Part shown: positions 9,803 through 29,678 of the stretch, one piece after another
Layout of the letters: each line of letters begins with the position of its first letter
Position numbering within the stretch: position 1 is the stretch's first letter
NCBI GenBank assembly: GCA_016210005.1
Contig: JACQVA010000262.1
Location: 1-64,000, forward strand
DNA: 64,000 bases
Direction of reading: 5' to 3'
DNA from: Deltaproteobacteria bacterium
GTDB taxonomy: Bacteria > Desulfobacterota > Binatia > HRBIN30 > JACQVA1
Position numbers and translations under genes: made by a program
The notes under the pieces: model-generated
The model's database searches: none
What the model was told of the DNA's origin: nothing
What the model saw: only the letters and a program-made list of their open reading frames with translations

Positions 9803-9883
9803 GGGTACGCAGGTTAGCACGCTGCGCTCGCACCTGTCGAACCGCGGTGAGTGTCGTGCGAGTTTCTGCTAGGTTGTGCGACG

Positions 9884-10956: not shown

Positions 10957-13533
10957 TCATTCCCGTTCGATTGCGCCGGCTTCGACGTAGGCTTGTATCT
11001 CGTCCGGCGTCAGGCCGAGCAACTCGCCGAAGACATAGTCGTTGTCCTGCCCTAGCGCCGCGCCGGTTTGGCCGCTGCGGCCGGGAGTGCCGGTGAGACC
11101 GAGCGGAATGCCGTTGGCCACAACCGTCCCCTTCTTCGCGTGGGCGATTTCCTCGAAAAAACCCCGGGCGGCCAGCTGGCGGTCGCGGCGGAACTGATCC
11201 TCGATGTTCTGCACCACACCGGCGGCGACGCCGGCAGCCTGCAACCTGCTCATGACATCGTAGGCATCGCGGCCGGCGGTCCACTCCTCGATCAGCCGAT
11301 CCAGCTCGGCGGCATGTTCGAGTCGAGCGGCGAAGGTGGCGAAGCGCGCGTCCGCCGCCCACGCCGGGTCACCCATAGCGCGAGCGAAGCGCTGCCACTG
11401 CGCCTGGCTGGACACGGCGATGGCACACCAGCGGTCATCGCCCCGGCAGCGGTAGCAACCGTGCGGTGCGGCGTGGCGAGAGCGATTGCCCAGCCGCTCC
11501 GGCTCGCGGCCATTGGCGAGATACTCCATGAGCACGTGGCCGGCAACGCTTACCGTGGCCTCGAACTGCGAGAGGTTGATGTTCTGGCCTCGAGCGCTAC
11601 GGCGCCGATACTCAAGTGCACATAGCACCGCAAACAACCCGTGCAGCGCGCTCACCGTATCGGGATAGGCGTACTGCGTGATGGTGCACGGACGCTCGGG
11701 CAAGCCCGAGACCAGGCCGAGGCCGGAGACGGCTTCGATGTTCGGCCCCCAGGTGATGTACGAGCGGCAGGGTCCGCTGTCGCCAAAGCCGGACGAGCTG
11801 AGCATGATGAGGTCGGGCTTCACTCGTCTGAGTTCTTGGTATCCCAGCCCCAGCTTGTCCATCACGCCGGTGCTGTAGTTCTCCACCACGACGTCGCAGC
11901 TTGCCACCAGACGTTTGGCCAGATCGACCGCCTGCGGTTGCGTGAGATCGAGTGTCACAAAGCGCTTGCCGGCGTTCCAGTCGGTGAACCACGGCGAGAG
12001 CTGCGTCTGAATACCCATCTCCGGCGCCCACGGCGGTATGTAGGCGCGGGTGACATCCGGCCGCTTCTGCGATTCCACCTTGATGACCTCGGCGCCGCAG
12101 TAGGCCAAGTGCCGCCCGATCCACGGGCCGGCCATGCCGGCGGTGAACTCGACGACGCGCAGGCCAGCGAGGGCCGCTACTGCAGAGGCAACAGCTTCCC
12201 CCTCCCGAAAAGGGGGATCGCCGGAGATTTCTTCCACCAGCGCAAATCCCCCCTGGCCCCCTTCTTTCGAAGGAAGCGACCTCCGTTGGGTGACAGGGGC
12301 GACGCCTTTCGGGACGACGCCGGCGTTCACGAGGGTACGCAGCGTTTCCTCAGACAGCCCCAGCTCGCCGCAGTAGATCTCCTCGTTGTGCTCGCCGAGC
12401 CGCGGGGCCGGGCGCGTAATGCGCCATGGCGTTTCGGCGTGGCGATACGGTGCCCCCGGATAGCGCAGCATGCGGCCGCCGCCATGATCGACGCTGACGA
12501 AGTACTCGCGGGCGGCGAGCTGAGCATCATGCACCACCGCCGCGGCGCGGTTGACCGGCGTGACCGCGAGGTGCCGGCGCTGCCCCTGGTGGTAGAACTC
12601 GGCGACCGTGAAATGAGCGGTCAACTCGGCGATGTAGTGATCCAACAGGTCGCGCGAGTCGTAGCGGTGGAACGCCTGGCCGTCGAAGATCGGGTCGAGC
12701 ACGGCCCGGTTGCCGGTCACTTCAAAAATCCACTGCGCCAACGCGCGCCAGTGCGCCGGGCGGTTGACGATGAGGTAAACCGCACCGTCGCGGCAGGAAT
12801 AGGCACCCGACGGCACCGCCGCGAACAACCCCGGCCCCCGACGCCGAGCAATTATCTGGTCGTCAAGCCACTTGCCGGCGCCGCAGACGTGGGTGACCGA
12901 GGCGGTGACCTCTTCCGCTGAAATGTCGACGTGCTGCCCGATCCCCGTCCGCGTGCTGTGGTGGAGCGCGATCAGACTGCTCACCGCCGCATAGGTCGAG
13001 GCCATCATGTCCGCCTGCGATCCGGCAAGTGTCACCGGTGGGTCGTCAGCTTCGCCGGTGACGTGCAAGGCGCCGCCCAAGGCAGCGGCGACCAGATCGG
13101 CGGAGTGAAAGTCCTTGTACGGCCCGGTCTGTCCGAAACCCGTGATCGAGGTGAGCACCAAGCGCGGGTTGAGTACCTTTAACTTCCCGTAGCCCAGGCC
13201 CAAGCCGTCCAGATAACCGGGCGGGAACGTTTCAATGACGATATCGCCTGTGCGAGCGAGCTGTTTGAACAGTGCCTGGCCTTCGGGATGATCGAGGTCA
13301 AGAGTGATGCTCCGCTTGCTGCTGTTGAGGTACAAGAACGACAGGCCGCGGTTCGGATCGGGCTGGTCGTGCCAGAAGGGCGGGAGGTTGCGGGCAGCAT
13401 CACCGCCGGGCGGCTCGATCTTGATGACATCCGCGCCCATCTCAGCCAGCAGCTTGCCGCAGTAAGCGCCGGATTCACCGGCGAGCTCCAGGACCCGGCG
13501 GCCGCTGAGGGCGGATGGAGTTGTAACGCGCAT
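10957..13533 (-). CDS. Fused double family III (CaiB/BaiF) CoA-transferase
   Basis: 858 residues carrying two complete family III CoA-transferase domains in tandem, about residues 8-430 and 465-858. Each has the family hallmarks: LLAEMGADVIKIEPPGGD and HLAYCGAEVIKVES at the N-terminal fold, then TLDLDHPEG and TLDLTQPQA, and GFGQTGP and GFGDSGP. The catalytic Asp is expected near SQADMMAS in the first half. These enzymes move CoA between carboxylates through an aspartyl-CoA anhydride. Most relatives are single-domain dimers. The linker is coded by a palindromic repeat, which may have created the fusion. ATG 13533 matches the family start. It is the last gene of the operon. Confidence 0.9.
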   Translation of the reverse strand: MRVTTPSALSGRRVLELAGESGAYCGKLLAEMGADVIKIEPPGGDAARNLPPFWHDQPDPNRGLSFLYLNSSKRSITLDLDHPEGQALFKQLARTGDIVIETFPPGYLDGLGLGYGKLKVLNPRLVLTSITGFGQTGPYKDFHSADLVAAALGGALHVTGEADDPPVTLAGSQADMMASTYAAVSSLIALHHSTRTGIGQHVDISAEEVTASVTHVCGAGKWLDDQIIARRRGPGLFAAVPSGAYSCRDGAVYLIVNRPAHWRALAQWIFEVTGNRAVLDPIFDGQAFHRYDSRDLLDHYIAELTAHFTVAEFYHQGQRRHLAVTPVNRAAAVVHDAQLAAREYFVSVDHGGGRMLRYPGAPYRHAETPWRITRPAPRLGEHNEEIYCGELGLSEETLRTLVNAGVVPKGVAPVTQRRSLPSKEGGQGGFALVEEISGDPPFREGEAVASAVAALAGLRVVEFTAGMAGPWIGRHLAYCGAEVIKVESQKRPDVTRAYIPPWAPEMGIQTQLSPWFTDWNAGKRFVTLDLTQPQAVDLAKRLVASCDVVVENYSTGVMDKLGLGYQELRRVKPDLIMLSSSGFGDSGPCRSYITWGPNIEAVSGLGLVSGLPERPCTITQYAYPDTVSALHGLFAVLCALEYRRRSARGQNINLSQFEATVSVAGHVLMEYLANGREPERLGNRSRHAAPHGCYRCRGDDRWCAIAVSSQAQWQRFARAMGDPAWAADARFATFAARLEHAAELDRLIEEWTAGRDAYDVMSRLQAAGVAAGVVQNIEDQFRRDRQLAARGFFEEIAHAKKGTVVANGIPLGLTGTPGRSGQTGAALGQDNDYVFGELLGLTPDEIQAYVEAGAIERE
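12195..12285. repeat. Palindromic repeat inside the CoA-transferase linker
   Basis: Two hairpins side by side: CCCCCT with AGGGGG (about 12200-12217) and CCTTC with GAAGG (about 12260-12275). They are separated by a stretch that encodes an EGGQGGF-type peptide. Mobile palindromes that translate as KGGxGGF peptides are widespread in proteobacterial and cyanobacterial genomes. Here the element lies in frame between two domains. Confidence 0.65.
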
Positions 13534-13634
13534 GCCGGTAACAGCACTCACACGGTTTCGGGCTGACTCCGCGCAGCCTTGCTTGCGAGGCCGGCCCATT
13601 CACGTGTTGTGAGGTGAGCAGCGCAGCGGCGACC

Positions 13635-15344
13635 TCAGGCGGCGCCGACCGCATCGCGCGCGGCGATGTAGCCGAAGGTCATCGCCGGGCCGATGGTGGC
13701 ACCGGCGCCGGGGTAGCTGTGGCCCATGGTCGCGGCCGAGCAGTTGCCAACGGCATAGAGGCCGGGAATCGGTTGTCCGGCTTCCGTCAGCACGCGCGCG
13801 CGGGCGTCGGCCTTCAAGCCGCCCTTGGTGCCGAGCTCGCCCGGATAGGCGGCGATGCCGTAGAAAGGCGGCGTCGCGATGGCAGCCAGGCAAGCATTCG
13901 GCTTCACCTTCTCGTCGCCGTAGTAGCGATCGAAAACCGTTTCGCCGCGGTGGAAGTCGAGATCCGTTCCGCTGCGCGCGTACTGGTTGAACTTGGTGAT
14001 GGTAGCGCGCAGGCCGGCGGGGTCGAGGTCGAGTTGCGCCGCCAGGCCCTCCAGGGTGTCGGCTTTCTTCAGATAGCCTTTCAGCGGCTTCGGCAGCGCC
14101 CAGTCGGGTTGCTGCGAGGCCTGCAGGATCGGGCCGTAGGGGTACTTCTTGCGGAAGGTGGCATCGAAGACGACGTAGGCGGGCACACAGGGAGTGTCGG
14201 GGGTGTTGCTCTTGTACATCGCGTTGACGACGTCGATATACGGTGCGGCTTCGTTGACGAAGCGCTCGCCGCGCTTATTGACCATGATGCTACCAGGCAG
14301 TGACTTCTCGATTACCAAGATGCGAGCGTGCGACTCGCCCGGCACGAGCGTGACCGGTCCCCACCAGGCATCGTCCATGAGATCGAGGGCCGCACCCACC
14401 GCCAGGCCGAGGTTGATGGCGTCACCGGTGTTGGCGTGGTTGCCGCAGGACCACTCGGTGCGCGTCGGGTTGGGCAGGTATTTTTCGCGCATCGCCTGGT
14501 GGTGCTCGAAGCCGCCGGCGGCCAGCACCACGCCCTTGTCGGCACGAATACGGATGCGCCGGCCGTTCTTATCGGCAACCACGCCGACCACGCGGCCGTT
14601 TTCGACCACCAGTTCACGCGCCGCCGTCTGCAGCCAGAGCGGGATGCCGCGATCCATGAGCGAGCGGCGCAGCATGCCGACAAGTGCATTACCCATCGCT
14701 AGGTTACGGTCGCGTTTCGACTTGAAGCGCCACGGCAGATCGAGCCAGTAGCCGCCCATCAACTTCATCGTCAGCGCGATCCAGCCCGCCGCTCGCGTCA
14801 GCAAGGTGCGCGCTTCGAGCACGGTCATGAAGATGCGGTTCATGATCAGCATTTGCGGGTTCTGCTCGCGCAGGTTGAGAAACTCATCGCCGAGCAGTCG
14901 GGCGTCGAAATTGGTCGGCTCGATGCAGCGGCCGCCGGGGCGCCAGCCCGGGGCGTGGGGATAGTAATCGGCGTACTCGGGCAACGCCACGAACTTAACC
15001 CGCGAGTGCTCGGTGAGGTACTTGACCAACTGCGGCGCCTGTTCCAGGTAGGCCCGCAGGCGGTCTTCCGCCACCGCCTCGCCGACCGTGGCCTTGAGAT
15101 ACGCCCAGGCGTCTGCGGACGAGTCCTTGATGCCGACGCTGTCCATCAGGGGATTGCACGGCACCCACAAGCCGCCGCCCGACATCGCCGAGTTGCCGCC
15201 GTAGCGGTCGCTCTTCTCGATCAGCAGCGGCGCCGCGCCGCGATCGTAGGCCGTCAGCGCCGCCGTCATGGCGCCGGCGCCCGAACCGACGATCAAGAGG
15301 TCAACGGTCTGGTCCCAGTTTGTCGTGGCGGTGTCGGCGCTCAT
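13635..15344 (-). CDS. FAD-dependent dehydrogenase, 3-ketosteroid-delta-1-dehydrogenase-like
   Basis: A 569-residue flavoprotein of the fumarate reductase / KstD superfamily. The N terminus has the FAD dinucleotide fold LLIVGSGAGAMTAAL and the following Glu of LLIEKSDRYGGNSAMSGGG. The C terminus has the second FAD contact YPGAGATIGPAMTFGYIAA. The length is close to 3-ketosteroid-delta-1-dehydrogenases, which introduce a 1,2 double bond in ring A, but many relatives act on other cyclic ketones. It lies 13 bases from the hydratase gene in the same operon. The KstD-type fold is clear, the steroid substrate is inference. Confidence 0.8.
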   Translation of the reverse strand: MSADTATTNWDQTVDLLIVGSGAGAMTAALTAYDRGAAPLLIEKSDRYGGNSAMSGGGLWVPCNPLMDSVGIKDSSADAWAYLKATVGEAVAEDRLRAYLEQAPQLVKYLTEHSRVKFVALPEYADYYPHAPGWRPGGRCIEPTNFDARLLGDEFLNLREQNPQMLIMNRIFMTVLEARTLLTRAAGWIALTMKLMGGYWLDLPWRFKSKRDRNLAMGNALVGMLRRSLMDRGIPLWLQTAARELVVENGRVVGVVADKNGRRIRIRADKGVVLAAGGFEHHQAMREKYLPNPTRTEWSCGNHANTGDAINLGLAVGAALDLMDDAWWGPVTLVPGESHARILVIEKSLPGSIMVNKRGERFVNEAAPYIDVVNAMYKSNTPDTPCVPAYVVFDATFRKKYPYGPILQASQQPDWALPKPLKGYLKKADTLEGLAAQLDLDPAGLRATITKFNQYARSGTDLDFHRGETVFDRYYGDEKVKPNACLAAIATPPFYGIAAYPGELGTKGGLKADARARVLTEAGQPIPGLYAVGNCSAATMGHSYPGAGATIGPAMTFGYIAARDAVGAA

Positions 15345-15357
15345 GTGACGACCTCCC

Positions 15358-16443
15358 TCAGTTGTTCGGTGCCCGGCTCGGCAACGCCAGCGTGGCGGTG
15401 CACGGCGTTACCGGGCCATCTTGGGTGGCGATGACGATTTCCAGATCGACTCGGTGCTCACCGTCGGTGATGTACTTCTTGGTCACCTTGCCGGTGATGA
15501 TCATGCCGTCGCCGGCGCAGACGTTGCCGCGCATGGCGATGTTCATCCGCCGCACGGTGCTCCGCGGGCCGCCCCAATCGGTCATGAAGCGGCTGATCAT
15601 GCCCATGTTGAACGGGGTATTGACGAAGATGTCCTTGGTCTTCGAGCGTTGCTGGGCGTACTCGCGGTTGGAGTGTTGCGGCGAGAAGTCGCGAGTGGCC
15701 GAGGCCAGGTAGATGCAGCGCGTGAAAGTGATCGGCATGTCCAGCTTCGGCAGCTCCTCGCCCGCCTCCACCTCTTCCCAGAAGCGGTCGCGAAAGACGC
15801 GGGCCTTGTACCCGGTCTTGTCGCCTTGGATGACTTCTTCGACCGCCGGGCTCCAGCCGCCCTGCGAGCTGCCGGCGACCGGCGGCGCGCCTTCTTGGCG
15901 GCCGTATCCGAAAGCGGTCATGCGCTCGCGCACGATCAGCTCGCCTTTCTGGTTGCGGTAGAGCCGGTCCATGACCCAGAAGTGCCCTTCGCCGACGCGC
16001 GCCTTCTTCCACGGCGAAATCGACACCAGCCGCTGGCTGACCGAGACGCGATCGCCGACCTGTAACGGGACATGATTCTCCATCTCAATCTGCGTGATGA
16101 TGCCAACGGGAAGATTCAACGCTTCCTTGATGTCGTAGTGAATGTGCCGCACCGGCTCGCGCTCGCCCGGCGGCCACGGCCAGCGGAAGTGCATGGCGAA
16201 GGTGGTCATCACTGAGCCCGGCGGTGCCACCACGTTGCGAAATCCTTGGGCCCGGGCGTAGTCGGCGTCGAGGTAGAGCGGGTTGCCGTCCTCCAGCGTC
16301 TCGCACCAGTGACGGATGAGGTACTCGTTGACAGCGAGCGGCGCCGGCTCGGGCGCTGACTCCTGCGCCAGCTCGCACAGCTTGCGCTTGGCGTCCTCGG
16401 AGAGGTACTCGGGGATGTAGTCCAGTACGGTGTCGCCGGTCAT
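15358..16443 (-). CDS. Double-hotdog MaoC-like enoyl-CoA hydratase
   Basis: 361 residues forming two hotdog domains. The N-terminal half (about 30-180) is a FAS1-type dehydratase fold with ETLEDGNPLYLD and the GFRNVVAPPGSV loop. The C-terminal half (about 215-360) has the hydratase-2 signature ATRDFSPQHSNREYA, whose Asp and His form the catalytic pair. Similar proteins hydrate steroid side-chain enoyl-CoAs (ChsH1/ChsH2) or other bulky acyl-CoAs. The first half lacks the His, so only the second site should be active. ATG 16443 starts 8 bases after the upstream dehydrogenase gene ends at 16452. Confidence 0.8.
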   Translation of the reverse strand: MTGDTVLDYIPEYLSEDAKRKLCELAQESAPEPAPLAVNEYLIRHWCETLEDGNPLYLDADYARAQGFRNVVAPPGSVMTTFAMHFRWPWPPGEREPVRHIHYDIKEALNLPVGIITQIEMENHVPLQVGDRVSVSQRLVSISPWKKARVGEGHFWVMDRLYRNQKGELIVRERMTAFGYGRQEGAPPVAGSSQGGWSPAVEEVIQGDKTGYKARVFRDRFWEEVEAGEELPKLDMPITFTRCIYLASATRDFSPQHSNREYAQQRSKTKDIFVNTPFNMGMISRFMTDWGGPRSTVRRMNIAMRGNVCAGDGMIITGKVTKKYITDGEHRVDLEIVIATQDGPVTPCTATLALPSRAPNN

Positions 16444-16451
16444 GGCCGCCC

Positions 16452-17732
16452 TCAATGCATCTCAGCGTAAGTCTTACACCGGCCGCGCTGATTGGCGTGC
16501 TCGGCGAGGTCCTTCGCCAATTCGGTGCGCGAGCGAACGGCGCGAACCGGTTGTGGTGGGGTCTTGAAGGTCTTGCGGCCGTCTTCGGTCAGGCGTGGCG
16601 GCTGGCCGGCGTCGAGCACAGCGCTGGCGACCAGCTCTTCCAAGTAGCGCGTGTCCCACCACGACAGTTGCAGCTGCTTAGCGCGGCGGAAGTACAACTG
16701 GATATCGCACTCGATGGTGAAGCCCATACCGCCGTAAACCTGCTGAGCCATCGCGGTGACGTCGCGAAACGTCTGGCAGGCGAACAGTTTCGCCATCGGG
16801 GCCAGCCGGTCGACCGGCCGTCCGAGCGCGCGGGTCCAAGCGGCTTCGTAAACCAGAGTGGTGCCGCCGTCGACCGCGGCCGAGGCGTCAGCCAAGTAAT
16901 GGGCAATGGCCTGGAAGGCGCCGAGCGGCTTGTCGAACTGCTCGCGCTCTTTGGCGTACTGGACGGTCATCTCCAACGCTCGCTGCGCCCCGCCGATGGC
17001 CTGTGCCGCCAGCAGGATGATGCCGTCGTGCATCAGCGTGTTCCATGTCGACCATCCCGACTGCGCCGCGCCGATGCGATCGGCCAACGGCACGCGCACG
17101 TCCTTGAAGGCTACTTTGTACTGCGTGTCCGCGGCCAAGGCGTACTGCTGCGTGATTTCGACCCCGGGCGATTTGGGATCAACCAGCAGCAGGTCGACGT
17201 CGTGCTCGCCGTTGCCGGTGCGGGCCAAGACCAGCAGGCGGGTCGCGGCCGCGGCGCAGGCCACATGCCGCTTGCTGCCGTTCAAGCGCAAGTGCTCGCC
17301 GTCACGAACGGCGGAGAGCTGGACACCTTGCGGACCGAACCCGCGCTGTGGCTCCAACCACGCCGGAGTGAAGACAGCCGCGCCCGAGGCGATTTGCGGC
17401 AGCCACATCTGCTTCTGAGCGTCGCTGCCGGCCAGCGCCAGTGCGCCGCCGCTCATCACCGCGCTGGCGAAGTGCGGGCAGGGGGCCAACGAGCGGCCGA
17501 GTTCTTCGTACAGGATGGCACCTTCGACGCTCGACTGCCCGGCGCCGCCGTATTCTTCCGGCAGCGTCAGGCCGATCAGGCCCAGCTCACCCATCTGCCG
17601 CCAGAGCTGCTCGGAAAATCCGCTCGGGTCATCTTCCATTTTGCGCACCACGGCCAGCGGGGCCGACTCGCTGCACAACCGCTGCACCGTCTCCCGCAGC
17701 ATGTCTTGTTCTTGGCTGAAATCGAGGTCCAT
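16452..17732 (-). CDS. Acyl-CoA dehydrogenase (partner type)
   Basis: 426 residues with the acyl-CoA dehydrogenase layout: N-terminal helical domain (DFSQEQDMLRETVQRL), central beta domain with KRHVACAAAATRLLVLAR, and C-terminal helical domain with KEREQFDKPLGAFQAIAHYLAD and QVYGGMGFT. After that motif comes YFRRAK where catalytic members carry the YEGT glutamate, so the usual catalytic Glu is missing at that site. Actinobacterial steroid pathways use alpha2beta2 dehydrogenases built from two such unequal subunits, and a second dehydrogenase gene lies directly upstream. Pairing of the two products is inference. Confidence 0.85.
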   Translation of the reverse strand: MDLDFSQEQDMLRETVQRLCSESAPLAVVRKMEDDPSGFSEQLWRQMGELGLIGLTLPEEYGGAGQSSVEGAILYEELGRSLAPCPHFASAVMSGGALALAGSDAQKQMWLPQIASGAAVFTPAWLEPQRGFGPQGVQLSAVRDGEHLRLNGSKRHVACAAAATRLLVLARTGNGEHDVDLLLVDPKSPGVEITQQYALAADTQYKVAFKDVRVPLADRIGAAQSGWSTWNTLMHDGIILLAAQAIGGAQRALEMTVQYAKEREQFDKPLGAFQAIAHYLADASAAVDGGTTLVYEAAWTRALGRPVDRLAPMAKLFACQTFRDVTAMAQQVYGGMGFTIECDIQLYFRRAKQLQLSWWDTRYLEELVASAVLDAGQPPRLTEDGRKTFKTPPQPVRAVRSRTELAKDLAEHANQRGRCKTYAEMH

Positions 17733-17859
17733 CTGTTGTTACTCCTTGGTACGAGGAGGAAGAGGGGGGTTAACCGGACTTAACCGATCGAACGGATTAA
17801 AGCAGGAGGCCGGGTTCTGAGTAACCATATTCCGAATCCGTTGTCGGCCTATTCCGTGT

Positions 17860-19038: not shown

Positions 19039-19079
19039 GGTTGGTCTCCTATTGCCGAGCCTAGCCAGCCACGCTCCGC

Positions 19080-19907
19080 TCAATGGCCTTTGAACACCGG
19101 CTTGCGTTTTTCCACGAAGGCGCGCGTGCCCTCGCGGGCGTCTTGGGTATTGGATGACAGTGTCGCCGCGATCGCTTCGTAGTCGAGCATCTCGTCGAGC
19201 GTCGAGTTGAGCGAGCGATAGATGAAGCGGCGCGCGAGATCGACGGCCACGCTCGGGCCCTTGGCCAGCTCCTTGGCGTAGCGCAGCGCGGCGTTCAACG
19301 CTTCGCCCTCGGGCACCAGTTCGTCGAGCAAGCCTTCCTTGAAAGCCTCTTCGGCTTCGAGGATGCGCCCGGTCTCTACCATCATCAGCGCGGTCGAGAG
19401 CCGGGTGATGCGCGGCAAGAAGTACGTGATGCCGCAGTCGGGCGCGAAGCCGAGGCGCACCATGGCCGCGCACAGACGGGCTTTGGTGTCGCCGAAGCGC
19501 CGATCGCACGCCAAGGCGAAGGCGAGCCCGGCGCCCATGCACGGGCCGTGAATCGCCGCGATCACCGGCTTGTCGACTTCGATGAGCCAGTGAGTGACCT
19601 CGGCTATCGGCCCAGCGGGCATCTTGCGCTGATAGCGCTCCATGACGAGGTTCGGGTCCGACAAGCCGGGCAGCGGCCGATCGCCGCCGCCGCTGAGCCA
19701 GTCGGCGTCGCCGCCGGCGCTGAAGGCGCGCCCGGCGCCGGTGAGGACGAGGGTGCGCACCTCATCGTTCTCGCGTAGCTCGCGCAACAACTGCACCAGG
19801 CGCCGGCCAACCTCCCAGTTGATCGGATTGAGGCGCTCGGGCCGGTTGAGGGTGATGATGCCGACGCCGTCTTCGATGCGGAACAAGACAGGTTCTTCTG
19901 CTGCCAT
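19080..19907 (-). CDS. Enoyl-CoA hydratase/isomerase (crotonase)
   Basis: 275 residues with the crotonase fold. The oxyanion-hole loops are TGAGRAFSAGGD (about residue 60) and HGPCMGAGLAFALACD (about residue 120). At the first catalytic position of hydratases (usually Glu) the sequence reads AAMVRLG, so that Glu is missing. At the second it reads APDCGITYFLPR, with Asp in place of Glu. The Asp-type pattern is found in enoyl-CoA isomerases such as PaaG, so double-bond isomerisation seems more likely than hydration. A separate MaoC-type hydratase is present in the operon. Confidence 0.85.
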   Translation of the reverse strand: MAAEEPVLFRIEDGVGIITLNRPERLNPINWEVGRRLVQLLRELRENDEVRTLVLTGAGRAFSAGGDADWLSGGGDRPLPGLSDPNLVMERYQRKMPAGPIAEVTHWLIEVDKPVIAAIHGPCMGAGLAFALACDRRFGDTKARLCAAMVRLGFAPDCGITYFLPRITRLSTALMMVETGRILEAEEAFKEGLLDELVPEGEALNAALRYAKELAKGPSVAVDLARRFIYRSLNSTLDEMLDYEAIAATLSSNTQDAREGTRAFVEKRKPVFKGH

Positions 19908-19944
19908 GGTTGTTACCTCCGTACTCTCAAGAGCCCCTCACCAG

Positions 19945-19965
19945 CCCTCTCCCAGGGGGAGAGGG
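19945..19965. repeat. REP-like palindrome in operon spacer
   Basis: An inverted repeat with 9-base arms (CCCTCTCCC and GGGAGAGGG) and a 3-base loop. It lies in the 115-base spacer between the crotonase and thiolase-like genes. The same palindrome type recurs at 61818-61846 inside pglX and, degenerate, near 46890-46925. It has no T tract and is unlikely to be an intrinsic terminator. Confidence 0.65.
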
Positions 19966-20022
19966 AGCAGGATTAAAGCAGGTTCACTGTTCCATTGGGA
20001 GAGCGTCAGATGTTCGCGCGCC

Positions 20023-21201
20023 CTAACGCTTAAGCACCACTGCGGTGGCGTTGCCGCCGAGACCAAGTGTCTGCGCTAGGCCCACTCTCGCATTGGGTAC
20101 TTGGCGGGCGCCGGCCTCGCCGCGTAGTTGCCAGCCCATCTCGCAGACCTGGAACAGCCCCTGTGCGGTGGTGGCTTCACCGAAACAGAGGAACCCGCCG
20201 CTGGGGTTAATCGGTAGCTTGCCGGTCGGCATGGTCTCGCCCGTCTCCATGAGGTGCTCCGCTTCGCCCGGCTTGCAGAAGCCCCACTCCTCGGGAAACG
20301 CGAGCTCGTAGTACACCGTGTTGTCCTGCAACTCGACGAGGTCGACGTCCTTCTGGCCGACCCCGGCACCCTTGAGCGCTTTTTCGACCGCGAGTTTCGC
20401 CTCGCTGTGCAGCGTCGGCCCTGACGGCCCCAGCCCGCCGAGGCCGCGCGTGATGCCGTCGTCGAAGCTGGCGGTCGCCACCGCGCTTGCCGCCACCCAC
20501 ACCGGCTTCGAGGTGCGCTTCTTCGCCTGCTCCGCTGAGCACAGGATCACCGCGGCCGCGCCGTCGCTCACCGGGCAGATCTCGTACAAACGGAGCGGAT
20601 AGCTGACGACGTTCGACTTGAGCACCTGCTCGAGCGTGAACTCCTGTCGAAAGCGCGCGTTCTCGTTGTGCTTGCCGACCTGATGCGCCTTGACGGCTAC
20701 CTTCGCCAGCTGCTCCTCGGTGGTGCCGTAGTCTTTCATGCGCCGCCAGCAGAGCGACGCCCAAAACGCCGGGCCGGGCATGCCGACGCAGCGCTGGCGC
20801 AGGAACTCGGGATCGGTGGTCTCCTCCAAGCCGGAGGTCTGGATGAATCCCTTGGGCATCTTCTCGCCGCCCACGACGAGCACCAGATCGTAGAGCCCGC
20901 TGGCAACGAGGGTGTAGCCGATGTTGAAGGCGTTGCCCCCGGCGGCGCATCCCGCCGACAGGTTGTAGACGGGGATTCCCGTCGAGCCCATCTCTTCGAC
21001 CACGTCGTTGCCGTTCAAGCCCCAGCCCTTGCCGCCGGAGAAGCGCGAGCTAGCGGCCGAGACCGCCTCGATCTCGCGCCACGACACGCCCGCGTCCTTG
21101 AGCGCCGCTTCTACCGCAACCCGGCACAGGTCGTTGACCGACTTGTCCGCAAACTTCCCCCACGGGTGCATTCCCAGCCCGATGACTGCCACGTCTCTCA
21201 T
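20023..21201 (-). CDS. Thiolase-like protein (SCP-x / Ltp2 type)
   Basis: 392 residues of the thiolase superfamily. An N-terminal AVIGLGMHPWGKF stretch opens the fold, and the nucleophile-loop Cys appears to be kept in NLSAGCAAGGNAF (about residue 85). The two other thiolase signatures are altered: NPSGGFLCFGEATTAQG replaces the GHPxGA motif, and the C-terminal CxG motif reads LGLGGNATAVV with no Cys. This is the pattern of lipid-transfer-protein thiolases and Ltp2-like aldolases, which release propionyl- or acetyl-CoA by retro-aldol cleavage. These work with a DUF35 partner, and one is encoded 31 bases upstream. Confidence 0.85.
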   Translation of the reverse strand: MRDVAVIGLGMHPWGKFADKSVNDLCRVAVEAALKDAGVSWREIEAVSAASSRFSGGKGWGLNGNDVVEEMGSTGIPVYNLSAGCAAGGNAFNIGYTLVASGLYDLVLVVGGEKMPKGFIQTSGLEETTDPEFLRQRCVGMPGPAFWASLCWRRMKDYGTTEEQLAKVAVKAHQVGKHNENARFRQEFTLEQVLKSNVVSYPLRLYEICPVSDGAAAVILCSAEQAKKRTSKPVWVAASAVATASFDDGITRGLGGLGPSGPTLHSEAKLAVEKALKGAGVGQKDVDLVELQDNTVYYELAFPEEWGFCKPGEAEHLMETGETMPTGKLPINPSGGFLCFGEATTAQGLFQVCEMGWQLRGEAGARQVPNARVGLAQTLGLGGNATAVVLKR

Positions 21202-21232
21202 GTGCGTCTCCGTCTCTGCCGCGTGCGCCGAC

Positions 21233-21649
21233 TCACACCGGCCTGAATTTCCAGGTGATGACCTCGGTACCGTCGGCTTCGTGGTACAGGGGCTCCAACA
21301 CCAGCTCCACCGGCATGTCCGGCCGCAGGCTCCTCAGATCGTCCGTGCTGATCCGGCCCAGCACCCGCAGGCCATCGTCGAGATCCACCACCCCCATCGC
21401 GTAGGGCTTGAACGGCTCATCGAATTTCACCGGCGGTGGCGGCGCATAACTCTGGATGGCCAGGCTCCACAACCTGCCGCGCGGTCCGAACGCGGCATCC
21501 TGGATCTTGCTCTCGCCACACTTCGGATTGTGACAGACAGCGGACTTCGGAAAGTACGGCGCGGCGCACGACGCGCAACGCGATCCCAACAGCCGCGGCC
21601 CCTGCGGGGTATCGGCAAAGAGGCCCGCGATTACCGGTTTCGTTTCCAT
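21233..21649 (-). CDS. DUF35 Zn-ribbon/OB-fold acyl-CoA-associated protein
   Basis: 138 residues. A rubredoxin-like zinc ribbon (RCASCAAPYFPKSAVCHNPKC, about residues 25-45, four cysteines) is followed by an OB-fold of about 75 residues with a PYAMGVVDLDDGLRVLG motif. DUF35 proteins bind CoA thioesters and form complexes with thiolase-like proteins, as ChsH2-DUF35 does with Ltp2. ATG 21649 is chosen over the GTG at 21652 because AGGATGAGG lies upstream. The etfA stop codon is only four bases upstream, so the two genes are translationally close. Confidence 0.9.
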   Translation of the reverse strand: METKPVIAGLFADTPQGPRLLGSRCASCAAPYFPKSAVCHNPKCGESKIQDAAFGPRGRLWSLAIQSYAPPPPVKFDEPFKPYAMGVVDLDDGLRVLGRISTDDLRSLRPDMPVELVLEPLYHEADGTEVITWKFRPV

Positions 21650-21653
21650 CACC

Positions 21654-22631
21654 TCATCCTTTCAGCGCCCGAGTGATCGCAGGCAAAATCTCGAGGCAGT
21701 CGCCGACGATGCCGTAGCGCGCGTAACGGAACACCGCCGCGTCCGGGTCGCGGTTGATCGCCACGATCGTCTTCGCTGCGGCGCAGCCGACCATGTGCTG
21801 GCTGGCGCCCGAGATGCCGGCGGCAATGTACAACGCCGGCCGCGTGATCTTGCCGGTTAGCCCGACCTGGCGCGAGGAGTCGACCCAGCCGTTTTCCACC
21901 ACCGGACGCGAGGCCGCAGCCATACCGCCGAGGGTCTCGGCCAGCTCTTCGATCAGCCGGTAGTTCTCCTTCTTGCCGAGTCCCATACCACCGGCCACGA
22001 TGATCTGCGCCTCCTCGAGACGCGGGCCTTCAAGGTGCGCTTTCTGGATGACCCGCACTCGTTCAGTTGCCGCGCCCAGGTCGACCGCCACCTGCCGCAC
22101 GGCCGGCGCCGGCGAGTCCGCTGCCGGCGGCTCCACGAGCAGCATGTCAGCCAGGACTCCGACCACGCAGGACTCCGCGCCGGTCAGCTCGTAGACCACA
22201 CGCGTATCCCCGCCGTAGGCCGAGGCGGTAACCTTGACCGCTCTACCTTCCACCTCCAGCTTCAGCGCATTCATCACCACGCCGGCACCGGTGCGCGCCG
22301 ACAGGCGCGGCGCCACCAGACGCGCGTTGAACGTCTGCGGGATGAGTATCAGCTTCGGCGCGTGCTGCTTGCTGTACTGCGCCAGGGCTTCGACCCAGAC
22401 GTCGGCCTGGAAGTCAGCGAGTTTAGCGTCCTCGATCCGATCGAGGTGAGCGACGCCGTACTTGCCCGCGATTTCGAGCGCCCGCTCCGGTGCCGGACCA
22501 GCGATCAGCCAATTCAATTCGAGACCCGCAGCAGCGGCAAGCTTGCAGGCCAAGCTGAGCGTTTCTTCCGCGCCCACGGGTACACCCGCACGGCCTCGTT
22601 CCCAGGTGCAGACAACGACCGAATTTGACAC
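21654..22631 (-). CDS. etfA: Electron transfer flavoprotein alpha subunit
   Basis: 325 residues, FAD-binding subunit of ETF. It collects electrons from the acyl-CoA dehydrogenases together with EtfB. The C-terminal FAD domain shows VGLTGKITRPALYIAAGISGA and QHMVGCAAAKTIVAINRDPDA, with the SR.VG-type start (DSSRQVGLTGK). GTG 22631 is preferred because GGAGG lies seven bases upstream; a GTG at 22655 would add eight residues. It follows etfB in the operon after a short gap. Confidence 0.95.
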   Translation of the reverse strand: MSNSVVVCTWERGRAGVPVGAEETLSLACKLAAAAGLELNWLIAGPAPERALEIAGKYGVAHLDRIEDAKLADFQADVWVEALAQYSKQHAPKLILIPQTFNARLVAPRLSARTGAGVVMNALKLEVEGRAVKVTASAYGGDTRVVYELTGAESCVVGVLADMLLVEPPAADSPAPAVRQVAVDLGAATERVRVIQKAHLEGPRLEEAQIIVAGGMGLGKKENYRLIEELAETLGGMAAASRPVVENGWVDSSRQVGLTGKITRPALYIAAGISGASQHMVGCAAAKTIVAINRDPDAAVFRYARYGIVGDCLEILPAITRALKG

Positions 22632-22661
22632 GTTTGCCTCCGAATGCTCCGTCACCGGAAC

Positions 22662-23459
22662 CTACTCGATGGTCCGCTCCGCGCGCAGGCGCGTGACCAG
22701 CTCCAGTGCCGCCGCGGCCGAGTCGCCCGGAATGACCTCGCAGCGGCCGATGATCGGTTCGACGAACTGGCGGGTCATCGTCACTCTTGGTCGAGCACTC
22801 TCACCGAGAGCGAGGCCGGCCGGCGTGATTTGCTGCGGCTTGATCTTGCGGGCCTTCATCGTGCGGATACCAGTCGGATAGCGCGGCTCGCCGAACTCGT
22901 TGCTGATCGTGATCACCGCGGGGCACGCGACCTCGACGATCTCGTCGCCGTCAGGCGTCACCCGCGTGACCCGCAGCTTCCCATCAACCAGCTCCACCGC
23001 GCGCGCGATGGTGACGATCGGCAGGCCCAACATCTCGCCCAGCAACGCCGGCACCACCCCCTGGTCTCCATCCGACGCCTGACGCCCGCACAGCACCAAG
23101 TCCGCCCCGCCGAGCGACTTCACGAACCCGGCGAGCAGCGCGGCGGTCGCGTAGCCGTCCACGGTCCCGGAGTCGACGGGGATGGTTGCGACCTCATCGG
23201 CGCCCATCGCGACCGCGTGTTGGAGAATCTTGGTCGGGTCGCTGCCGAGCGAGACCACGTGGATCTTACAGTCGACGCCGGCATCGCGCAGCCGCAGCGC
23301 GCACTCGATCGCCTGTTCGTCGTAGCGGTTCATCAGCCGCGGGATCGACGTCTGCGTCAGTGTCTTGCCGTCCGATCCGATCTCCAGCTTCCCCACCAGG
23401 ACGTAGTTGTCGACCGCGTCCGGATCGAGGACTTCCTTGGCGCAGATGACGATTCTCAT
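22662..23459 (-). CDS. etfB: Electron transfer flavoprotein beta subunit
   Basis: 265 residues, AMP-binding subunit of ETF. It starts MRIVICAKEVLDP and has the family signature stretch LCGRQASDGDQGVVPALLGEMLG, followed by the recognition-loop region that docks on dehydrogenases. It lies between etfD and etfA on the minus strand. ATG 23459 is the family start; the open frame extending upstream shadows the etfD gene. Confidence 0.95.
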   Translation of the reverse strand: MRIVICAKEVLDPDAVDNYVLVGKLEIGSDGKTLTQTSIPRLMNRYDEQAIECALRLRDAGVDCKIHVVSLGSDPTKILQHAVAMGADEVATIPVDSGTVDGYATAALLAGFVKSLGGADLVLCGRQASDGDQGVVPALLGEMLGLPIVTIARAVELVDGKLRVTRVTPDGDEIVEVACPAVITISNEFGEPRYPTGIRTMKARKIKPQQITPAGLALGESARPRVTMTRQFVEPIIGRCEVIPGDSAAAALELVTRLRAERTIE

Positions 23460-23494
23460 TTGCTGCACTCCTTGTTCCAGGCGCCTTCGATGGC

Positions 23495-25654
23495 CTAGCG
23501 CTCTTGGAGGGCGGGAGCTTGCTCCGGCTCTTGGGTGGTGCCGGGCGCCGCTGCGAGGCCCGAAAGCGGCGGCAAGCCGCCGCACTCCACATCGACGACC
23601 AGCGCTTCCGCAACCAGCTCGGCGATGTCCGCCGCCCGCACCGTCCGTTCCGGATCTTTCGTGCGGATAGCGTCCTCGAACATCTGCATGCAGAACGGGC
23701 ACGAGACGGCCGCCGTCTTGGCGCCACAGCCCTTTGCTTCTTCGAAGCGCAGGTGGTTGATTTTCGACTCGAGCTTGTCGTCCATCCAGGCGTACCCACC
23801 GCCCGCGCCGCAGCAGAGCGCCGTGGAACGATTCCGAGGCATCTCCGAGATGCCGCTTCTCGAAACCGACGCCAGCACCTGGCGCGGCGCGTCGTAGATT
23901 CCATTGTGGCGCCCGAGGTAACACGGATCGTGATACGTCACCGAATCCACCTCCTGCTTCAGCTTCAGTCTGCCGCTCCGGAGCAGTTGCTGGATGAACT
24001 CGGCGTGGTGAACGACTGCGTACTTCCCGCCAAAGTCGGGATACTCGTTGGCCAAGGTATTGAAGCAGTGTGGGCACGTCGTGATGATCTTCCGGATCTC
24101 GTACTGCTGGAAGAGTTCGACGTTGGTCTTGGCGCACATCTGAAAGGTCAGCTCGCCGCCCGCGCGCCGGGCGGGATCACCGGTGCAGGACTCCTCCGCG
24201 CCGAGCACGGCGAAATCGACCCCGGCGGCCTGCAAGACTTTGACGAAAGCGCGCGTCACTTGGATGTTGCGATCGACCAGCGCGCCGGCGCAGCCGACCC
24301 AGAAGAGATACTCCGCCGTATCGCCGCGGCCGTAGACCTTGAGGTCGAGGTCCTGAAACCACTCTTCCCGCTCGTGCGCGGCGCCGGCGAACGGATGCCC
24401 GCGTTCATCGATGTTCTTCAGAAACGTCTGCGTCTCGTCGCTCATCTTGGATTCGGTCATCACCAGGTAGCGGCGCATGTCGATCATCTTGGGGATGTGT
24501 TCGATATACATCGGGCACTCTTGCTGACAGGCTCCGCACGTGCGGCAGCCCCACAGTTCATCTTCCAGCACCGCCGGCCGCAACGGGCCCTCGGCGGCGT
24601 CACCGAACAGGGGCGCCTGTTCGGTGTCCGGTGCCGCGCCGCTCCCCGCTTGTGCCGCCAACAGCGACGGCCCGACTGCGCTCAGGTGATCGCGCAGGTT
24701 GCGAATGAGCAGCCGCGGATTCAGCTGGGAGCCCCCTAGCGTGGCCGGGCAGACCGACTCGCACCGGCCGCAATTCACGCAAGCATCGAGATCGAGCAGG
24801 CTCTTCCAGGAATACTGCTGGATCGCCTTAGCGCCGAGAACGGGCTCGCTCTTCCCGTCCTCGGCTTCCAGCATCGCTTCGATATCCGGATACGGCAGCG
24901 CGAGGCCGCGATTGAGATTGCGGAAAAAGATGTTCAAGGCGCCGTAGACGATGTGGTTGAGCTTTCCGGCGGAGAGGTAGCCGATGAAGGCGAATGCTGT
25001 GACGGCGTGAAACCACCAGCTACCGCGGTGCATGAACCGCAACGTCGGCTCGCTCAGTCCTTGCAGGGAAAGCGCGACCAGGTAACCGCCGGGAGACCAG
25101 CGGGCTAGAGCGGGATTGCCGTGCAACTCCGTCGCGGCCATTCGGAAACCTTCGGTCGCGAAGCCTTGCAGGAAAAGCAGCAGCAAGAGCCCCAGCGCAA
25201 CGCTGTCCTCCGTCAGAGAGACGACATGTCTTGGGCGCATGACCGTGCGCCGGACAAGGGCCATCGCCAGCCCGACGATCGCCAGCAGGCCGAAGCTGTC
25301 GCTCAGCAACGAGTACCAGCGATACGTCGCCCCTTGCAGGAAGTGGATTCCGCTCCATTCCTGCAAGCTGATCAGCGAGGTGGCGACCACCTGCGCCAGA
25401 AAGCCGTAGAAGATGAAGGCGTGCATCAAGCCGGGATACGGCTGGCGCCACTGGCGATGCTGCCCGAAAATCTCGAGCAGCAAGCCCGTCAGCCGCTCGG
25501 GAATGCGATCCCAGCGTGTTTCACTACCGCCCAGGCGCCAGAGGCGGTAACGGCGATACACGCCACCGGCGAACACTGCTGCGGCGACGGCGAGAAAGAG
25601 ATAGAGCAGCGCGCCGCCGGCGATGTTCCAATAGATCTCGCGCGTTTCAGCCAC
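23495..25654 (-). CDS. EtfD-like membrane Fe-S oxidoreductase
   Basis: 719 residues starting at GTG. The N-terminal third has five or six membrane helices of the NarI type with haem-ligand-like His. It is followed by two [4Fe-4S] motifs (CVNCGRCESVCP and CRTCGACQQECP). The C-terminal part has two CCG domains (CPHCFNTLANEYP, YHDPCYLGRHNG, ALCCGAGGG). This is the EtfD / heterodisulfide-reductase-like class that oxidises reduced ETF and feeds electrons to menaquinone at the membrane. The last 34 residues are coded partly by a palindromic repeat and look like a recent extension. Adjacent etfBA supports the role. Confidence 0.9.
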   Translation of the reverse strand: MAETREIYWNIAGGALLYLFLAVAAAVFAGGVYRRYRLWRLGGSETRWDRIPERLTGLLLEIFGQHRQWRQPYPGLMHAFIFYGFLAQVVATSLISLQEWSGIHFLQGATYRWYSLLSDSFGLLAIVGLAMALVRRTVMRPRHVVSLTEDSVALGLLLLLFLQGFATEGFRMAATELHGNPALARWSPGGYLVALSLQGLSEPTLRFMHRGSWWFHAVTAFAFIGYLSAGKLNHIVYGALNIFFRNLNRGLALPYPDIEAMLEAEDGKSEPVLGAKAIQQYSWKSLLDLDACVNCGRCESVCPATLGGSQLNPRLLIRNLRDHLSAVGPSLLAAQAGSGAAPDTEQAPLFGDAAEGPLRPAVLEDELWGCRTCGACQQECPMYIEHIPKMIDMRRYLVMTESKMSDETQTFLKNIDERGHPFAGAAHEREEWFQDLDLKVYGRGDTAEYLFWVGCAGALVDRNIQVTRAFVKVLQAAGVDFAVLGAEESCTGDPARRAGGELTFQMCAKTNVELFQQYEIRKIITTCPHCFNTLANEYPDFGGKYAVVHHAEFIQQLLRSGRLKLKQEVDSVTYHDPCYLGRHNGIYDAPRQVLASVSRSGISEMPRNRSTALCCGAGGGYAWMDDKLESKINHLRFEEAKGCGAKTAAVSCPFCMQMFEDAIRTKDPERTVRAADIAELVAEALVVDVECGGLPPLSGLAAAPGTTQEPEQAPALQER
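23566..23583. repeat. Perfect palindrome in the etfD 3' coding end
   Basis: GCGGCGGCAAGCCGCCGC, 18 bases with perfect 8-base arms and an AA loop. It translates as part of the CGGLPPLS tail of the EtfD-like protein. A short mobile palindrome inserted at the gene end is the likely origin. Confidence 0.65.
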
Positions 25655-25689
25655 GGCTACGCTTCACAATGATTCCGGGTCTTGGCAGC

Positions 25690-26793
25690 TCACTCGGCCG
25701 CGACGCCGGTCAGCTCCTCGAACGCCGCGAGGGCCTCGCCGGCCATGTCGAACACGATCTGGCGTGCCGGCTTCATCGCCTTGACGAAGCTGACACCTTG
25801 GCCCGCGGCTTCGGTCATCAGATCGCCGCGGCGATGGTCGTTGGCCCCTTGGATGTAATCGGAGCTGAGCAGCATCTGGTACGGCGCCGGCAAGATCGGG
25901 GGCGCCTCGGGCTTCGCCCACGCTTCCGTCCACGGGCACTTGAGGATACGCATCGGCATTCCGGAAATGCTCTTGGAGTACACGGTGTCGTCGGACGTCG
26001 CGGCGAGGAGCTTCTCCTTGACGATCATATCCGAGTCCGATTCGCGCGAAGCCAGCCAGAGCGTCCCCGTCCACACACCGGCAGCGCCGAGGCAGAGCGC
26101 CGCGGCGAGGTGCCGGCCAGTGGTGATGCCGCCGGCCGCGATCACCGGGACATCGCCCGCGATCGCCGCCACCTCGGGCACAATCGAGAAGGTGCCGATC
26201 GGCCCGGTGTGCCCCGCCGCGTCGTAGCCCTGCGCAATGATGGCATCGACGCCGGCCTCGATCTCGCGCTTGGCCTGACGGGTCTTGCCGATCAGACCGA
26301 AGACTTTGATCCCGCGCTCGTGCATGGCCTTCAGAATGAACTCGGGGCTGCCGAGCCCGGAGGTGAAGACCGGGACGCGCTCGTCCAGGATCACCTCCAG
26401 TTGCTTGCGGGCAATCTCCTGGTTGAGACCGCCCCACTGGTGCAACGCTACCTGTCCTTTCGGATCGGGTACGTTGTACTTCTCCTTGATGGCCCGAGCG
26501 AACTTGCGCTGGGGCTCGGGAATCTTGGCCAGCAACTCGTCCAGCGTGTCCTTGGGCGGCACCGAGGCCGGGAGGACCAAGTCGATGCCGAAGGGCTTGC
26601 TGCCGACCCGCTCGCGAATCCACTTGATATCGGCGGCGATCTCGTCGGGGGTGTGCATCGCTTCGCCGAGGACGGCGAACCCGCCGCTGTTGACGACCGC
26701 GTTCACGACATCCTTGCAGTGCGTGAAGGCGATGATCGGGAACTCGATCCCCAGCATATCGCAGAGCTTGGTGTGCAACGGGTTCTTGGCCAT
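25690..26793 (-). CDS. Nitronate monooxygenase family flavoprotein
   Basis: 367 residues, TIM-barrel FMN enzyme of the nitronate monooxygenase / 2-nitropropane dioxygenase class. Motifs include the N-terminal LGIEFPIIAFTHCKDV, the catalytic GYDAAGHTGPIGT with the base His, and the FMN-phosphate site AAGGITTGRHLAAAL. In several catabolic clusters such proteins act as enoyl reductases or with an acyl-CoA pathway, so the substrate need not be a nitronate. It is the first gene of the long minus-strand operon, with a palindromic operator candidate about 80 bases upstream. Confidence 0.88.
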   Translation of the reverse strand: MAKNPLHTKLCDMLGIEFPIIAFTHCKDVVNAVVNSGGFAVLGEAMHTPDEIAADIKWIRERVGSKPFGIDLVLPASVPPKDTLDELLAKIPEPQRKFARAIKEKYNVPDPKGQVALHQWGGLNQEIARKQLEVILDERVPVFTSGLGSPEFILKAMHERGIKVFGLIGKTRQAKREIEAGVDAIIAQGYDAAGHTGPIGTFSIVPEVAAIAGDVPVIAAGGITTGRHLAAALCLGAAGVWTGTLWLASRESDSDMIVKEKLLAATSDDTVYSKSISGMPMRILKCPWTEAWAKPEAPPILPAPYQMLLSSDYIQGANDHRRGDLMTEAAGQGVSFVKAMKPARQIVFDMAGEALAAFEELTGVAAE

Positions 26794-26873: not shown

Positions 26874-26889
26874 ACTAACAAACGTTAGT
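26874..26889. promoter_or_regulatory. Palindromic operator candidate, ACTAAC-N4-GTTAGT
   Basis: A perfect 16-base palindrome with 6-base arms, 81 bases upstream of the first gene of the catabolic operon. Spacing and arm length fit a TetR-family operator. It resembles but does not match the KstR-type TnnAACnnGTTnnA box, because its spacer is two bases longer. The regulator is unknown. Confidence 0.5.
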
Positions 26890-29505: not shown

Positions 29506-29678
29506 TCTTCCTCCTCCTTCCTTACACGCCAAACACGCCAAACGCGCGTACCTGCACGCCGCACCAAATGCCCGAATCGACTGGAATGTGCAAGGGAATC
29601 GCGCCACCCCAAACCACAAAACCACCCCCCAGCGCGGCGCGCGGGCGGCGGTTTTGGCGACAGGCACCCCCGCGGAGA

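Follow-up and report, generated by a model that had tools for sequence, protein, structure and literature searches.

A likely steroid-degradation operon with a distinctive thiolase in a Binatia metagenome-assembled genome

Most descriptions of bacterial steroid degradation concern Actinobacteria and Proteobacteria, and IpdA is a hallmark of the degradation of steroid rings C and D. We analyzed a 64,000-nucleotide stretch of DNA from a Deltaproteobacteria bacterium of the GTDB class Binatia (positions 1 to 64,000 of contig JACQVA010000262.1, assembly GCA_016210005.1; hereafter the window), in which a twelve-gene operon encodes relatives of enzymes from several described systems. One of these is the 2,3-seco pathway of anaerobic steroid degraders, in which, according to passages of a 2019 review (PMC6678751), the 2,3-seco ring-A product is activated by an unknown enzyme, desaturated, hydrated and cleaved with release of acetyl-CoA, after which the B-ring step is unknown and methylhexahydroindanedione propionate (HIP) follows. 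Sterolibacterium opens ring A hydrolytically, as stated in a section of PMC3691188. Another system comprises the retro-aldolases Ltp2 and Sal; a portion of PMC12329534 gives YDCY or YDHF as the motif of CtSal and TcLtp2, and Gly at the thiolase Cys position of CtSal.

Our reading of the operon is that of a CoA-dependent module for the steroid nucleus (rings A/B), acting upstream of a separate Ipd cluster (HIP, rings C/D) in the same genome, and we assign this reading a probability of about 0.5. A steroid function as such is likely; from the genes we infer the substrate, the order of steps and the regulation. We computed directly which genes are present, how far they are conserved and co-distributed with IpdA, their catalytic motifs and a palindrome that the operon has in common with other sites; comparable sets of genes are found repeatedly in other poorly characterized bacteria. 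Taken as a whole, the data support a steroid context and a variant of steroid catabolism as already known, marked by a distinctive clade of thiolases.

The twelve open reading frames (ORFs) lie on the minus strand at 10957-26793 behind a promoter region of their own, with intergenic distances from a 4-bp overlap up to 127 bp, which confirms the twelve-gene operon proposed in an earlier note on this DNA. That note had correctly listed a pair of acyl-CoA dehydrogenases (ACADs), a hotdog hydratase, a thiolase, DUF35, a KstD-like protein and EtfAB-EtfD; to these are added a crotonase and an NMO-family gene, which it did not name. In order of transcription the genes are as follows.

25690-26793, minus strand: NMO-family FMN TIM-barrel enzyme, FabK-like, operon gene 1 (PF03060, 175 bits; best PDB match FabK-type, 149 bits)
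23495-25654, minus strand: EtfD-like membrane Fe-S oxidoreductase with CCG domains (PF02754 and Fer4 domains; counterpart in genome G008 88% identical)
22662-23459, minus strand: EtfB (PF01012; start taken at MRIVICAKE)
21654-22655, minus strand: EtfA (PF00766, PF01012)
21233-21652, minus strand: DUF35 / OB_ChsH2_C zinc-ribbon partner of the thiolase (PF01796, PF12172; four Cys, kept in 25/25 aligned)
20023-21201, minus strand: SCP2-thiolase-like protein (Cys85; QDNT for HDCF, GEAT for GHP)
19080-19907, minus strand: crotonase-family protein, PaaG-like, probable enoyl-CoA isomerase (PF00378; 4fzw_C; motif columns)
17860-19038, minus strand: ACAD1 (subunits of steroid ACADs as best solved matches)
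16452-17732, minus strand: ACAD2, presumed heteromer partner of ACAD1
15358-16455, minus strand: double-hotdog hydratase, N half inert, C half D-x4-H (ChsH1/ChsH2 are the best PDB matches of both halves)
13635-15344, minus strand: 3-ketosteroid Delta1-dehydrogenase-like flavoprotein, AcmB type (7p18, 593 bits; KstD1 catalytic columns)
10957-13599, minus strand: fused class III CoA-transferase, 880 aa, two CaiB domains (9fn0_A for the N half, 9fn0_B for the C half)

The KstD-like flavoprotein is 50.5% identical over 547 residues to its best solved match, 7p18 (593 bits), followed by the KstD-type entries 8jbz and 4c3x at 307. We take 7p18 to be AcmB, the cholest-4-en-3-one Delta1-dehydrogenase of Sterolibacterium. 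Tyr127, Tyr369, Tyr544 and Gly548 occupy the KstD1 catalytic columns Tyr119, Tyr318, Tyr487 and Gly491. All four residues are intact in 18 of 19 aligned proteins, the exception being a distant protein (locus L057) with Phe for Tyr119. Catalytic roles of KstD1 Tyr318 and Tyr487 are reported in a part of PMC8220720. In a small tree the protein clusters with other sequences of the module, apart from 7p18. We predict that the operon flavoprotein is an AcmB-like Delta1-dehydrogenase.

Both halves of the double hotdog have ChsH1/ChsH2 as best PDB matches, at just ~45 bits per half. The C half reads RDFSPQH, with the D-x4-H motif present in 18/18 aligned proteins; in the N half, the window protein has EDGNPLY, with Tyr in place of a His that is found there in 2/18. 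ACAD1 matches 4x28_A, presumably FadE26, at 199 bits and 6wy8_B (Tcur3483) at 198, with the next distinct enzyme at 139, and the best matches of ACAD2 are generic (5ol2, 169 bits; 6wy8_A, 125 bits). The two thus form an adjacent unequal pair with one subunit nearest the ChsE type. The crotonase is more likely an isomerase because it has lost both hydratase Glu columns and keeps the PaaG-like Asp (PDCG); its best PDB matches are PaaG-type, 4fzw_C by its title and the other entries by our own assignment. A role as ring hydrolase was rejected on the same columns. The N half of the fused CoA-transferase matches chain A and the C half chain B of benzylsuccinate CoA-transferase (9fn0), a match that serves as a ranking and not as proof, the PDB holding few class III CoA-transferases of this type. 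An apparent catalytic Asp is present in 10/10 aligned N halves, and Asn in 9/9 C halves. The GHTG motif of the NMO protein is kept in 21/21 aligned.

The grouping is not due to chance, since G008 keeps the order EtfD-EtfB-EtfA-DUF35-thiolase-crotonase-ACAD1-ACAD2-hotdog-KstD-CaiB-CaiB of the window at 67-91% identity (the compared stretch stops short of the NMO position). The CoA-transferase is encoded by a single fused gene in the window and by two separate genes in G008 and G014, which corrects the plural "CoA-transferases" of the earlier note. As that note had stated, the operon contains no acyl-CoA ligase; the G008 and G014 operons each include a PrpE-like one. Its suggestion that the CoA-transferase replaces the ligase is plausible, the best solved match being benzylsuccinate CoA-transferase, subunit for subunit. 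G008 and G014 also share a conserved gene after the operon with weak similarity to phosphoenolpyruvate synthase (L039:16814-19438 and L044:14948-15445).

The thiolase differs from the aldolases that act on steroid side chains. It matches an SCP2 thiolase at 188 bits, benzoylsuccinyl-CoA thiolase at 131 and 6ok1, which we take to be Ltp2, at 67. Cys85, QDNT and GEAT are present, the Cys of HDCF and the His of GHP in SCP2 thiolases are missing, and the YDHF/YDCY aldolase motif is absent from the protein, which has the nucleophilic Cys. In a tree built from the collected loci, with fragments of <250 residues excluded, it falls into a monophyletic clade of 25 sequences (support 0.999). The nearest NCBIfam model is PRK06059 (410 bits against a cut-off of 424), which has the Cys and the GEA motif in common with it and whose members read YDLS in place of QDNT; IpdA or IpdB lies in the flanks of 16 of 36 PRK06059 loci. 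By these motifs and this tree, the window thiolase is assigned to a distinctive clade of its own, related to an Ipd-linked family. An identification of PRK06059 as Ltp3 was dropped, since in a Mycobacterium locus (L123) the gene is flanked by a polA-like and a pdtaR-like gene, as judged by eye from their sequences. Related thiolases with an ADNT/ADNS motif, 45-48% identical, occur in Sphingomonads, Brevundimonas and relatives (L077-L088), adjoining DUF35 and often a TonB receptor; such a cluster is also found on the Sphingopyxis FD7 plasmid pSFD01 (L054).

A scan of our collection of genome contigs kept 79 loci, of which 21 have a thiolase at least 70% identical to that of the window. Many of the 21 are on short contigs, and their depositor names (Binatota, Actinobacteria, Chloroflexi, Dehalococcoidia, Deltaproteobacteria/Myxococcota and others) are those of metagenome-assembled genomes (MAGs), which can be wrong. 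They contain DUF35 in 20 cases, EtfB and EtfA in 19, NMO (at least 66% identity) in 17, the crotonase (at least 51%) in 11, a luciferase-like monooxygenase (LLM) enzyme of TIGR03617 in 10, KstD (at least 58%) in five and the double CaiB (at least 53%) in two. HyuA-HyuB-AcxG is complete in eight, and one more locus has HyuA at the end of its contig; AcxG is the Pfam family Acetone_carb_G, and HyuA is nearest to acetophenone carboxylase, far under its cut-off. No steroid genes were seen by eye in the Nonomuraea locus (L055). Of the 21 loci, 13 have a conserved ORF of ~90 residues between the NMO and EtfB genes (L073:7434-7703 and equivalents in L056-L076); it has no Pfam match and was not found in the window.

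Among 98 genomes of the same class, thiolase orthologs (at least 74% identity) are found in 16, two of them as split pieces, and IpdA (at least 60%) in 21, after removal of five weaker or partial matches from 26. Fifteen of the 16 thiolase-positive genomes have IpdA (hypergeometric, 4e-12); within-family shuffles gave a mean overlap of 9.5, and 0/20000 reached 15. All 12 orthologs of the hotdog (at least 64%) are in IpdA genomes. Contigs shared by the module and the Ipd genes occur as well. In G003 (contig C85) the Ipd cluster lies at ~56-68 kb and the module genes, including a TonB receptor, at ~94-119 kb, ~26 kb apart; in G040 (C37) the hotdog is at 3.7 kb, the crotonase and fused CaiB at 19-25 kb and the Ipd genes at 50-59 kb. 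The genome of the window has its Ipd-type cluster on contig C158, with IpdA (344 bits to 6co6, presumably IpdAB), IpdB-like, IpdC-like NMO, EchA20-like crotonase, an ACAD pair, FadA6-like thiolase and a short-chain dehydrogenase/reductase (SDR), names that beyond IpdA are putative and follow gene order and NCBIfam scores. Also encoded in this cluster are a member of PRK06059, scoring 723 bits against a cut-off of 424, and, accompanied by a DUF35 of its own, a PRK07855 protein that scores 543 bits against 469, reads YDAF and has no Cys (QVG at that place); we take PRK07855 to be the family that includes Ltp2. The steroid link proposed by the earlier note is supported by the co-distribution with IpdA, the common contigs, the AcmB-like KstD, the ChsH-like hydratase and the kinship of ACAD1 with steroid ACADs.

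Further features of the window bear on uptake and regulation.

27046-29667, minus strand: TonB-dependent receptor, possible substrate importer, upstream of the operon (PF00593, PF07715; 37% identical homologue within the G003 cluster)
26874-26889, no strand assigned: operator-like palindrome ACTAACNNNNGTTAGT between the TonB receptor and the first operon gene, sole perfect copy in the genome
3479-3494, no strand assigned: second palindrome copy with 1 mismatch, 18 bases before the TetR gene (genome scan)
3513-4229, plus strand: TetR-family regulator, probable regulator of the operon (PF00440; own palindrome upstream)

The TonB receptor, which the earlier note had put behind the operon, is encoded on the operon's strand and upstream of it, and a terminator-like hairpin (26993-26976) separates the two. 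At no more than one mismatch, ACTAACNNNNGTTAGT has three sites in the genome: before the operon, before the TetR gene and before an operon DUF35-DUF35-thiolase-thiolase-crotonase on contig C222 (L187:5930-10123), which also has ACTAACGTTTGTT in front. A two-mismatch copy is found ~0.13 kb before HyuA on contig C235 (one of two matches in a scan of 23 loci), and the 13-mer ACTAACGTTTGTT is common to the sites before the window operon, the C222 operon and the C235 carboxylase operon. The palindrome may thus link the operon, the TetR gene and two further operons, one of them for an acetone-carboxylase-type complex, and TetR with its palindromic operator would switch these operons together. Downstream of the TetR gene (4597-5637) is an extended SDR with matches to PF01073 (3beta-HSD, 78 bits) and Epimerase (138 bits).

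A 2,3-seco-like reading of the operon is suggested because it has a candidate for each CoA step and an AcmB-like enzyme before them. It also fits that the genome gave no match to KshA_C (PF19298), KshA being the oxygenase with which the known aerobic degraders open the steroid rings in the 9,10-seco pathway. The KstD would form the ring-A 1,2-ene of a 3-ketosteroid, and ring A would then be opened, a step for which we propose no enzyme of the operon. The fused BbsEF-like CoA-transferase would load the resulting free carboxylate with CoA, and ACAD1/ACAD2 would desaturate the CoA ester, with electrons passing from EtfAB via EtfD to the quinone pool. The PaaG-like isomerase could position the double bond, the double hotdog hydrate it and the DUF35-thiolase release an acyl-CoA unit, and the NMO/FabK-like enzyme may reduce or oxidize an enone. 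A more specific, oxygenase-independent route through rings A/B was considered because HyuA-HyuB-AcxG adjoin the module in eight of the 21 loci and ACTAACGTTTGTT is common to the carboxylase and window operons. Here the acetone-carboxylase-type complex would carboxylate the ketone that ring-A opening leaves in the 2,3-seco intermediate (a 1-oxo methyl ketone), class III CoA-transferases would attach CoA to the product, and the new-clade Cys-Glu DUF35-thiolase would carry out the cleavage, bridging the 2,3-seco acid to HIP; we regard this proposal as distinctly improbable. Full-text searches found no literature pairing acetone carboxylase with steroid, CoA-transferase and thiolase, a search on benzylsuccinate CoA-transferase gave no match, and none was found pairing IpdAB and KstD in metagenome-assembled Myxococcota.

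Several observations weigh against assigning the operon to rings A/B. The MAG (G000; 5.9 Mb, completeness 97.6%) has a contamination of 4.5%. The KstD-like protein stays under the NCBIfam KstD equivalog cut-offs, its best score being 623 bits against 789, and apart from it the operon has no proven 2,3-seco ortholog (AtcABC was not searched for). IpdA or IpdB flanks the QDNT-clade thiolase in 0/21 loci, therefore the linkage is at the level of contig or genome; one of the 16 thiolase-positive genomes (G068) lacks IpdA, and six IpdA genomes lack the thiolase ortholog. Rieske proteins of the KshA_C type, matched in 28 of the 98 genomes, are found in nine of the 16 genomes that have the module, and therefore the module does not replace KshA everywhere; a general replacement of KshA was rejected, since within families KshA_C is associated with the module neither positively nor negatively. 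The reversed-palindrome control gave 8 sites at one mismatch against 3 for the palindrome, which is thus the rarer of the two, and the regulon argument for that reason concerns position and not counts.

Three other explanations have to be weighed. The earlier note had compared the genes to a module for steroid or isoprenoid side chains; in a reading of this kind the ACAD pair, the ChsH-like hydratase and the DUF35-thiolase would run one cycle on a sterol side chain, and KstD would be a neighbour acting on ring A. The nearest matches of ACAD1 (4x28_A and Tcur3483) and of the hotdog (ChsH1/ChsH2) agree with this, and the DUF35-thiolase pairing recalls Ltp2-ChsH2. The analogy with Ltp2 that the note had drawn is not supported, and ACAD2 has no steroid-specific best match. 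The thiolase lacks YDHF/YDCY (the motif as given in a portion of PMC12329534) and keeps its nucleophilic Cys, the genome's Ltp2-type PRK07855 protein lies with its own DUF35 in the Ipd cluster on another contig, and the conserved partners (NMO, crotonase, LLM, KstD, ketone carboxylase) appear unlike a side-chain set. We therefore consider a side-chain assignment unlikely.

The same chemistry could instead act on a different substrate, a polycyclic isoprenoid or alicyclic ketone such as a hopanoid, triterpenoid or diterpenoid, in which case the IpdA link would stem from a common ecology or from lower pathways that overlap. Acyl-CoA operons are numerous in the genome, which has 19 DUF35 matches, the relatives' clusters contain cytochromes P450, F420-type LLM enzymes and a Rieske protein, and the subthreshold KstD score would fit as well; the tight co-distribution and contig linkage with the steroid C/D-ring cluster, and a nearest solved KstD relative titled 3-oxosteroid 1-dehydrogenase (7p18), make this substrate range doubtful. 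Very improbable, in our view, is that the operon has no steroid role and handles branched-chain or aromatic acyl-CoA esters in general, in the manner of the benzylsuccinate (Bbs) pathway. Each half of the fused CoA-transferase matches its own subunit of BbsEF, DUF35 and thiolase match BbsAB moderately, and the G014 operon has two SDR genes, but KstD and a ChsH-like hotdog are foreign to the Bbs pathway, and the glycyl-radical enzyme near a KstD paralogue scores as a dehydratase, not as benzylsuccinate synthase.

This KstD paralogue, 67% identical, lies on contig C207 (L136:307-13168) near an LLM enzyme, an amidohydrolase-like gene, the glycyl-radical enzyme of dehydratase type and its activase; fumarate addition (an alkylsuccinate route) was rejected on the score of that enzyme. 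Past the window on its own contig (C262, L158:10087-16234), an operon with Fe-S and haem subunit genes encodes a Mo enzyme whose catalytic subunit resembles nitrite oxidoreductase subunit A (877 bits to 7b04). A steroid C25 dehydrogenase adjoining the window was thereby rejected, and the operon could point to a Binatota bacterium that oxidizes nitrite or reduces nitrate. Steroid C25 dehydrogenases are Mo enzymes of dimethyl sulfoxide (DMSO)-reductase type II; a Mo subunit of this type on contig C8 (L159:8706-11594), ethylbenzene dehydrogenase-like (641 bits), adjoins LLM enzymes and a distant KstD-like gene. Within the window, 6743-9820 encodes a Pro/Thr-repeat protein with a C-terminal pair of dockerin-like calcium motifs, recognized by eye, and a weak Ig-domain match as its only Pfam match.

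If the favoured reading is correct, a steroid catabolic set in Binatota, with counterparts in MAGs named Myxococcota, Chloroflexi and Actinobacteria, would widen the known range of degraders, and the QDNT-clade thiolase and fused CoA-transferase would be marker genes for metagenomes. The operon would also provide candidate genes for 2,3-seco steps that a passage of the 2019 review terms unknown (PMC6678751). Among the papers listed by full-text searches pairing the group with steroid terms, none has a title on steroid degradation in Binatota/Binatia; one of them, PMC9531527, deals with steroid biosynthesis genes.

Compared with the 2,3-seco pathway as outlined in passages of PMC6678751, the system shares the AcmB step, CoA activation, dehydrogenation, hydration, C-C cleavage and convergence on HIP, but it is known here from genes of uncultured organisms, and no ring-A hydrolase has been assigned among them. 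Its KstD resembles AcmB in sequence and in the four catalytic residues, whereas the module KstDs group apart from 7p18 and do not reach the equivalog cut-offs. The thiolase has its SCP2-thiolase family and DUF35 partner gene in common with the Ltp2/Sal retro-aldolases and differs from them in keeping its Cys, in QDNT for YDHF/YDCY and in scoring far lower against 6ok1 than against SCP2 thiolase. PRK06059 is the closest NCBIfam model, with the same Cys and GEA motif, but reads YDLS for QDNT, lies outside the window clade and is Ipd-linked in many MAGs. The CoA-transferase corresponds half by half to the two chains of benzylsuccinate CoA-transferase, although it is fused and stands in a different operon. 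Like ChsH1-ChsH2, the hydratase combines one active D-x4-H hotdog with one inert hotdog; unlike them, the two are fused in one chain, and DUF35 is a separate ORF instead of being fused to the hydratase.

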